This document shows, in pieces, positions 21,284-23,869 of a stretch of DNA of 64,000 nucleotides (the first letter of the stretch is position 1; each line of letters begins with the position of its first letter). Where the stretch lies: contig VXIS01000144.1 in NCBI GenBank assembly GCA_008704415.1, positions 1-64,000 of the forward strand, given 5' to 3'. The notes under the pieces were generated by a model. That model did not search any database and was not told where the DNA came from. It was given only the letters and a program-made list of their open reading frames with translations. Both the position numbers and the translations under genes were made by a program. This DNA is from Sphaerosporella brunnea (lineage: Eukaryota > Ascomycota > Pezizomycetes > Pezizales > Pyronemataceae).

Positions 21284-23869
21284 TCACATATAGGGATGGC
21301 GGTCGATGATATGTGGGTGATGATGCTGCTGATGCTGGTGTTGGTGTTGTTGCGGTGCTGAGACGTAGTCCGGGTGATATGGATGCGCGTGGGAGGCCGC
21401 CATCCATGGGTTGACCATGGCAGGCAGTCGCTGGGATGCCTGCTGTGCCATTTGAGCCTGATGTGGCATTTGCGCTGCTTGCTGCGGTGGCGTTAAAGCC
21501 GGCTGCTGCGGGGGTGATGGCGTGTGATTGTGATTATGATGGTGATCATGATGATGCTGGTCTTGATATCGATCGTAAAGAGGCGGGTTGGTGTTTTGAT
21601 TGTGCACTGATGTGGATCGCAAAAGCGATGATGGCTGGGGCAATTGCGCCGACCCCTCCCATCCCCATTTATCCTTCAACTCACTCTGGATGGGAGCAAC
21701 CTTCCATCCCGTTTCCTTTTTGATCTTGTCAAAGATCTCAAGCACCTCTTGCTGCTCGCGGTGGTCCTCCAAGCATTCCGCCGCATTAGCCAGCGATCGC
21801 AGAGCAACGCTGGCTACCCCGCGATCCTTCACATGAGCAGCGATGCCGCACACCTGGTGGGCATGGGTGAGAGCCATCTCTCGCATCTCCTCGGAGTCGT
21901 AAGGGTTGATCTTCGCCATCAGCACCATGGCCGTATGGTAGAATAGTCGTGCAACGATCACGCATCGTTTGATTAACCATACTTGCGGGAAAACCGACTT
22001 GTGCGCGGTTTGATAAGGCTGTAGGTGAGCCATTGGGTGCATATTGCGAGGAATGCGGTCGTTCCATGCCACACACAAATCGTAAAGGCCCTTCCATTCC
22101 TGATACCGCTTTTGAGTGGTTTCTGCATCCATGTATTCGGTGGCCTTTAAAGACGCCCTGAAGTTTGCAATCTTTGCAAGAATGTAAATGATTCGATGCG
22201 CCCACAGCTCTTCCCTACCAGGCTGACACTGTCGATTGAAGTCCATGTCAAGGCACCACTCATCCGGGTCCCATGACACCTGCCAATTGAACCGAAGGCA
22301 ACTCAGTATTTCCATGGTGACGTTAAGCCAGAAACAAGCACCACCAACGCTAGGGGTTCTTGCATTCCAATGACACTCTCTCAGCAATGCTCGTGCACCA
22401 GCTATGTGATTCATGCGTTGCAGAGGATGCTCGGACATGATTTCGTAGACGTTCAAGATAATCGCCGTAGTTGCACATATCTCCGTATCTCGAGTTGCTC
22501 TGCTCTGATTTTGAATCGACGCAAGGATCAGGCCGGTGGCGGTATTGTAATACTGCAGTGCCTTGTCTTCCTTGTAGGCCGGATTGACGAGCGTTAGATG
22601 ACGAGCGCCGCAAGCAAGGAAAGCATTGAGCAACATTGGTTCCCGAAGAGAATTAAATGGAAGTAAACGGGAGAACTGAAACCCTGAGTTAGCCATTCGG
22701 TGATGAAAGGGTGCCAGATGACTGACATGCTTCAACGGATCTAAACTGTCCATCCAGGTACCCACTTCCTCCACGAACACCTGCATGAATAATGTCTCTT
22801 CGGCGTTTTCCAAGTAGCTTCTGGTTTCTCTTGGTGCCGGTGATAGTGTATGATCTGACCTTGGTGCACGGGGAGGCCTCGACGAGGGCGAAGATGTATA
22901 GTCAGAGTATGTCGATGTTGATTGGTGGTGGGATTTTGAGTCCTCATCAGCGCTGTGGCTCGCATGAGGTGGTTTAGGTAGAGTAGGTGGCAGAATAGTC
23001 GATAGTGATGAAGCGGCAGAGGAGCCCATGCTGCTTAGATTACTCCGCGGAGTCGGCGGCGAATTTTTCGTCCTTACTGGTGTGGCGGCGTTTATAAACG
23101 GGGCGTACCGTTTAACACCTCCGGCATACTCTGATGCGATGTCTCGAGACTCATCCTGGAAGTCGACTGCGCGGGGTGCTAAATCAGCAGCCTTCTTCGG
23201 AGACAAGAAATACAGCCACTTGCCTTTCCACTCATCAGATATGGGTATTACGGGGGGCTGTTCCGTTTGGATATCGATAAAATTCAATCGAACACCCCGT
23301 TTACAGATCCTACAGTCATGGTTATTATGGCTGCTCTGGAGCAAGCAAAAATGAGCCAGCAGCATAGCATGACTTACCTGCTGGATTTTCGACAGTTCTA
23401 GACGATGCATTAATACGTTGGTCTGATGTTCAGAATGTATATACTGCTCACCTGGCAATCAGGAGTACCCTCATCGCCTGCATGATAACAATCAATCAGT
23501 TTTTGTCTCTCGTACACCGCGAGTTGTACAGCGGAGATGAATCATGAAGGCGTACACTTTAGATGGCGCTCTCTATGGGTTTGTTAGTTGTAAGGCTCGC
23601 GCTGCATGCAACTTTTGGGCCACTTACCTGCACGTGAGGCTTCAGTTTACATAAACAATCTATCGTCAGCCCAAGATTTTCGCGAGCAATAACATCAACA
23701 ACAATGATTGCCGTCGCTTACCATCCTGCACTCATGCGGTTAATTGTCAGCCCTCGCACATCCAATGGCAACCAACATATCGAGCTCTAAATCCATGGAC
23801 ATAGTATATATACCTACCTGTACGGACTCGCTTCGGTCTGTTGGCAACCACTGTTTCGTCGGCAGCCAT
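21284..23869 (-). CDS. Zn2Cys6 transcription factor with micro-exons in the zinc cluster
   Basis: Exons (minus): 23869-23818, 23725-23722, 23639-23628, 23572-23556, 23477-23452, 23397-23378, 23309-21284; 718 aa. The exons are 52, 4, 12, 17, 26, 20 and 2,026 nt. Joined, they give a canonical Gal4-type cluster, [12 protein letters not shown] then [10 protein letters not shown] then RKSSRIC, with Cys at 19, 22, 29, 36, 39 and 46 (C-x2-C-x6-C-x6-C-x2-C-x6-C), preceded by the basic ANRPKRVRT. All introns have GT..AG ends and every phase fits. The long exon begins [12 protein letters not shown], has FQDESRDIASEYAGGV, a fungal transcription-factor middle homology region from about residue 260 (LRHLTLVNPAYKED-like helices) and a Gln/His-rich tail ending DRHPYM. 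It is a nuclear DNA-binding regulator; its targets are unknown. The ATG is the first in frame. Confidence 0.88.

Follow-up and report, generated by a model that had tools for sequence, protein, structure and literature searches.

Organization of the locus

The window analysed here, the whole of a 64,000-nt stretch of Sphaerosporella brunnea DNA (assembly GCA_008704415.1, contig VXIS01000144.1, positions 1-64,000), carries on its minus strand six small exons and a long exon that join, on spliced translation, into a perfect Zn2Cys6 cluster. The best homologue among the matches listed is a partial S. brunnea protein, FN846DRAFT_766596 (hereafter P0001), and because the window DNA yields this protein letter for letter, the window gene is FN846DRAFT_766596. 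Coordinates are window positions, and all exons and introns are on the minus strand.

Exon 1 (23869-23818, 52 nt, placed by spliced alignment) runs from the start codon to KRVRT and the first base of Gly18; it is without Cys, its start resembles the MAADE, MTADE and MAATD starts of the homologues P0002-P0005 and P0007, and it is followed by a tandem donor, GTAG/GT (23817-23814; here and below a slash marks a splice junction or site). Exon 2 (23725-23722) consists of the 4 nt GATG, which supply two bases of Gly18 and two of Cys19, and is missed by P0001. Exon 3 (23639-23628, 12 nt) holds the last base of Cys19, Leu, Thr, Cys22 and two bases of Arg23; exon 4 (23572-23556, 17 nt) extends from the end of Arg23 to the first base of Cys29; exon 5 (23477-23452, 26 nt) from the end of Cys29 to Gln37, including Cys36; and exon 6 (23397-23378, 20 nt) from Asn38 to part of Arg44, including Cys39. 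The end of Arg44, Cys46 and a conserved linker are encoded by exon 7 (23309-23224, 86 nt). The codons of Cys19 and Cys29 are thus each interrupted by an intron, and across exons 1-4 the junctions of the chain read ACAG/GATG/CCTCACGTGCAG/AGAG. By sequence and spliced alignment this is a microexon-containing gene, with internal exons of no more than 30 nt (4, 12, 17, 26 and 20) between introns.

Introns 1-6 measure 92, 82, 55, 78, 54 and 68 nt, are GT..AG in six of six cases and fit in all phases. Branch-like motifs stand 15-30 nt before the end of introns 1-5, a simple branch motif found no match in intron 6, and the donor of intron 4 is GTACGC. Intron 7 (23223-23167, 57 nt) is of the GC-AG type (GCAAGT..GCGCAG) and is read as coding sequence both in the long ORF and in P0001; intron 8 (22726-22676, 51 nt, GTCAGT..CAG with a branch-like CTAAC) is removed in P0001. 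Because both are in frame and free of stops they are invisible to ORF reading. Between them lies exon 8 (23166-22727) of the splice chain, and exon 9 (22675-21284) carries the regulator middle region and a His/Gln-rich tail to the stop. With introns 7 and 8 removed the product is a protein of 682 aa.

A preliminary description had placed a six-exon zinc cluster in 23378..23869. Its exons, GT..AG introns and phases stand, but that interval holds only five of the six Cys: exon 1, which had been counted among the exons needed to spell the cluster, contributes none, and the sixth Cys codon (23305-23303) lies within the long exon. This exon, which begins at 23309, is not single but divided by introns 7 and 8. 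The accompanying statement that no single ORF contains more than two of the Cys holds, with retention of any of introns 2-6 leading to a stop before the next Cys.

Clusters of the GAL4 type are defined by six Cys at a characteristic spacing. In the spliced product the spacing is C-x2-C-x6-C-x6-C-x2-C-x6-C, that of Zn2Cys6 domains, and the Pfam zinc-cluster family PF00172 is matched with E 2.9e-7 and 30.9 bits (cut-off 21), whereas the long ORF alone gives no PF00172 match. The nearest clusters in the PDB by sequence are those of PUT3, then of HAP1 (CYP1) and PPR1. The Fungal_trans_2 family, PF11951, scores 36.2 bits in P0001 (cut-off 21), and the 682-aa window protein is not listed for it at E 0.01. 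These features point to a Zn2Cys6 regulator with a Fungal_trans_2-type middle region and nine coding exons, for which binding of zinc and DNA is predicted.

Spliced alignment of the locus

Since a manual choice of exons is open to many splice sites, the choice was handed to an algorithm. The 1.2-kb minus-strand region was aligned by dynamic programming to a 43-residue amino-acid profile of homologues. The number of introns was left free; each had to be GT..AG and 40-150 nt long and was charged 6 bits, and exons could be of any length, however short. The first profile was built from 107 homologous proteins and left out P0001, the window's own public model; it returned the identical six introns and peptide with 128.7 bits, and 60 shuffled sequences reached at most -13.9. 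A 129-row profile gave 127.2 bits for the locus, and 1000 dinucleotide shuffles had a mean of -38.2 (SD 5.6) and a maximum of -12.0. Across 210 overlapping 1.2-kb tiles covering both strands of the window the runner-up, a tile cutting the same locus, scored -16.4, and the next -19.7. Removal of the seven Pezizomycetes rows from the profile left the chain unchanged (126.4 bits). The chain is the best splice chain in the sequence, and its assembly by chance is excluded by the shuffles and tiles. The region had a single match in its own genome.

The cluster in homologous models

Three protein searches, from which the best 120 of 860, 862 and 811 hits were taken, gave 163 distinct proteins. The canonical spacing is present in 129 of these listed models, and five further six-Cys models (P0057, P0070, P0076, P0096 and P0119) have a third loop of 10 residues, so that all six Cys are kept in 134 of 163, a figure favoured by the queries themselves, since all or part of the cluster is present in two of the three (P0012 being the exception). 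A count over the first 120 listed models had given 107; the recount took in all 163. We considered mis-splicing as the source of the 10-residue loops and rejected it: the loops are related to each other and the change lies inside the equivalent of exon 5, not at a junction. For these reasons the five models are regarded as real variation and are not counted as broken.

The remaining 29 of the 163 have a partial cluster in six cases (P0001, P0048, P0060, P0092, P0122 and P0125) and none in 23, among them P0012 of Tuber magnatum and P0121 of Orbilia oligospora. At least one Cys is missing from 11 of the 117 listed models with an NCBI source, as against 18 of the 46 without (sources sorted by hand). 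The expectation that gene finders would usually miss such a cluster is thus unsupported, because all six Cys remain in 134 of the 163 homologous models listed; even the gene's own public model keeps five of six.

A Cys precedes LTC[RQ] in 134 of the 137 listed models that hold this motif, the exceptions being P0001 (Ser), P0092 (Ser) and P0048 (Asp), and the motif [KR]R[VT]R[TS]G occupies the basic stretch of exon 1 in 133 of the 134 listed six-Cys models. The 28 rows of our alignment A1 were picked for an intact cluster, and its invariant Cys are accordingly not independent evidence. One homologue, P0145 (88 member sequences), comes from a metagenome set under the name flagella basal body P-ring formation protein FlgA, evidently a mislabel.

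Age of the exon boundaries

Errors in protein models can be read for the possible position of exon boundaries, with codons guessed from residues (a Ser taken as AG/C, for example). Six of the six non-window models that are broken in or just before the cluster resume the family sequence at window junctions (J1-J6). P0028 (Chaenotheca) has all six Cys, but between KRVRT and G-C-L-T-C it carries seven foreign residues; it resumes at Gly18, the J1 acceptor, as read-through of gcaG/GA TGC would give. P0092 (Arthrobotrys) and P0048 (Thelocarpon) both resume at Leu20, after J2: the preceding residue is Ser in P0092, as AG/C read-through would give, and Asp in P0048, which such read-through does not explain. 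P0060 (Trichoglossum) resumes at Asp30, after J4, with A-G-D-E-G, as gcaG/GC GAT read-through would give, and P0122 (Dactylellina), which reads KRVRTG-DEG, also resumes at Asp30, having J1 joined to J4 in the same join that a skip of exons 2-4 would produce. P0125 (Cadophora) resumes at Asn38 (J5), and leaves the family sequence at Arg14, where there is no junction. P0092 is probably a misprediction, because P0066, 92% identical to it, has an intact cluster.

The upstream ends fit worse: P0028, P0048 and P0092 depart at Thr17 or Gly18 and continue with 7-20 foreign residues. Resumption at junctions in six of six models has a chance of approximately 2e-4 under uniform break points, a rough null over 29 positions and six non-window models, of which P0092 and P0122 are related. 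J3 and J6 received no support from broken models outside the window. These patterns suggest that junctions 1, 2, 4 and 5 are common to several classes of Pezizomycotina, given the classes to which we take these fungi to belong.

A search of viral contigs for orthologous DNA found none. The sole locus from the genome-contig search, L009 (NYXK01000007.1), was rejected as an orthologue, as it carries a different zinc-cluster ORF. Its 106-kb contig is titled Deltaproteobacteria MAG and may be fungal contamination of the bin, because the zinc-cluster ORF that it bears is of fungal type.

Splicing and its consequences

The reading that we prefer, with a probability of about 0.82, is that of a nine-exon regulator whose cluster is spread over exons 2-7, which is spliced by intron definition and for the most part constitutively, and at least some of whose boundaries are old across Pezizomycotina; what we infer is its use in transcripts, the order in which introns are removed, that splicing is constitutive and how old the boundaries are. 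Each short intron (54-92 nt) would be recognized as a unit, and exon size would for this reason hardly matter. Intron definition was reportedly described for fission yeast by Romfo and others in 2000. Introns 1 and 2, which flank the 4-nt exon, would most likely be removed successively, because two spliceosomes would hardly fit around exon 2 at once. Splicing may be mostly constitutive, and mis-splicing would lead to a truncated or cluster-dead protein.

Skipping of any microexon had been predicted either to shift the frame or to delete the DNA-binding domain. The second consequence is general: the cluster is damaged by every one of the 15 contiguous skips within exons 2-6. The first is not, for although 11 of the 15 shift the frame, four are multiples of three (exon 3; exons 2-4; exons 3-6; exons 4-6). 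The last three of these keep the long frame, whereas loss of exon 3 alone runs into a stop. If any single one of introns 1-6 is retained, a stop follows within 50 codons.

It is possible, although unlikely, that the microexons form a switch, with conditions setting their inclusion and the gene yielding either a DNA-binding form or a cluster-less form with the middle region. There is precedent among Zn2Cys6 regulators: in Trichoderma Xlr2 a 20-nt cluster microexon is included in glucose-deprived medium (PMC11121469). Exons 2-4 would lend themselves to this, as they total 33 nt between junctions of the same phase and their skip removes three Cys with the frame kept, the very join found in P0122. 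That model is, however, equally explained by a gene finder blind to tiny exons, and the prevalence of frame shifts among the skips, the stop met on skipping exon 3 and the stops that follow every retention of introns 1-6 speak against a switch. A bolder version sees the boundaries as an ancient device for safety or switching, favoured by selection, in which the exon 2-4 skip and the tandem donor (Cys to Ser) would give frame-neutral forms across Pezizomycotina and Sphaerosporella respectively; we consider this speculative and decidedly unlikely.

A different first exon is very unlikely. Here transcription would start inside intron 1, the ATG at 23735-23733 (minus strand) would open the frame, and GATG would be the end of a longer first exon. 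The frame ATG AGT GCA GGA TG/C is indeed present, reading M-S-A-G-C-L-T-C, and the spliced alignment falls back on an exon at this place (103.6 bits) when the acceptor of exon 2 is masked. This start lies 25 bits below the main chain, however, and loses the basic stretch, supplied by exon 1 in the correct phase, that is all but universal in the listed six-Cys models.

The public gene model

The splice-chain protein fits the family; P0001, which is obtainable letter for letter from the same DNA, differs from it by splicing. Where the chain reads RTGCLTC, P0001 reads RTGSLTC. It is obtained exactly when exon 1 runs on for four bases to the second donor (GTAG/GTATAT) and exon 2 is left out, with the GC-AG intron staying in and intron 8 spliced out. 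Exon 1 then reaches 23814 and joins exon 3 at 23639 as ACAGGTAG/CCTC, across a GT..AG junction; GTAG takes the place of GATG and Cys19 becomes Ser. The frame is kept, because the four added bases replace four missing ones. P0001 retains five Cys, and the Pfam zinc-cluster domain is still reported, with 26.8 bits.

At intron 7 the model departs from its relatives. Retention of this intron adds 19 coding residues, and the distance from LNF to the DES-like motif is 41 residues in P0001 as against 18-29 in the others, a length in which it stands alone among the 139 listed models measured. P0001 is error-prone in this region, since among those 139 it alone keeps the GC-AG intron. At the place of intron 8, which P0001 removes, KHF[ST] is uninterrupted in 151 of the 163 listed models; KHV stands there in P0030, P0045 and P0130, as a passed-over GT donor would give.

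Should P0001 be correct, exon 2 would go unused, the donor 4 nt downstream would be used in its place and Ser would occupy the first ligand position. The model comes from NCBI, follows exactly from the DNA and uses a GT..AG junction, and it may have had transcript support, RNA-seq of S. brunnea mycelium on PDA and MEA having been published (PMC6908789). Nevertheless we hold this to be highly improbable: Cys is found at that place in 134 of the 137 listed models with LTC[RQ], the same model keeps intron 7 as coding sequence, and a gene finder that keeps the frame but is blind to a 4-nt exon would choose just such a donor shift, equal in length to the exon left out. Judged by comparison with its relatives, P0001 is probably wrong at the 4-nt exon.

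The probability that the gene has no functional cluster, the chain being a fortuitous assembly and the protein starting within the long exon, is negligible. In its favour, an ORF runs without a stop from 23458 into the long exon, crossing part of intron 5, exon 6 and intron 6, and 23 of the 163 listed relatives are modelled without any cluster. We reject this reading on the 1000 shuffles and 210 tiles that exclude chance assembly, and most middle-domain-only regulators proved to be annotation errors in a published re-analysis (PMC10141177).

Relation to known systems

Several systems offer comparisons. In Trichoderma Xlr2 (PMC11121469) a microexon likewise lies in a fungal Zn2Cys6 cluster and is absent from the JGI model, and without it there is no DNA-binding domain. 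Xlr2 has a single 20-nt exon, however, with glucose dependence backed by RNA-seq, whereas the S. brunnea gene has five consecutive ones, the smallest of 4 nt, predicted from the sequence; the middle domain of Xlr2 is PF04082, that of the S. brunnea gene probably PF11951. The CeGAL re-annotation (PMC10141177) also attributes missing zinc clusters to prediction errors, and includes one mispredicted exon of two residues. Its proteins are without a detected DNA-binding domain, whereas in P0001 one ligand Cys is replaced and the domain still scores. Conflicts between annotation and RNA-seq are described for regulators of Aspergillus nidulans (PMC8396895).

The 4-bp microexon of MPC1 (PMC9929638) is similar in its length, not a multiple of three, and is constitutively included; unlike the present exons it is a single microexon, with exon-definition signals in the neighbouring introns, where the S. 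brunnea gene has short introns and adjacent microexons. Plant microexons (PMC8831610), up to 15 nt long, are conserved and often misannotated, and adjacent ones of 5 and 12 nt occur in a rice transcript; they belong to another kingdom and other genes, and were verified by RNA in plants. In the P450 genes of Phanerochaete (PMC1184071) very short exons and introns are again found in a fungus, the shortest exon being 6 bp, but they are not concentrated in one DNA-binding motif. A 14-residue peptide was not found in the literature searched, and the open-access literature searched, outside of which subscription papers mostly fall, contained no account of the gene and none of five consecutive zinc-cluster microexons.

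As a feature of the sequence the split cluster is genuine and well determined; a regulatory role is a candidate only. The gene is an extreme and testable case in which zinc ligands depend on the splicing of exons below the size that ordinary gene finders handle. In the public model a ligand Cys has been silently lost while the Pfam threshold is passed, and counts of domains would not reveal the error. Should the boundaries have the age that the broken models suggest, it would offer a natural case for studying how 4-nt exons are spliced in short-intron fungi, and also whether such exons are kept for regulation.

Neighbouring and related DNA

A 476-bp copy with 97% identity relates window positions 22246-22720, which include most of intron 8, to positions 3803-4276 of locus L018 on contig C334 (genome G000); no zinc cluster was found in the 8 kb around this fragment. 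The stretch on C334 is probably a dead copy, a fragment at the DNA level. Next to the regulator gene the window also holds an ORF of 790 aa (26628-29000, minus strand), which, from its motifs, we take to encode a DEAD-box RNA helicase.
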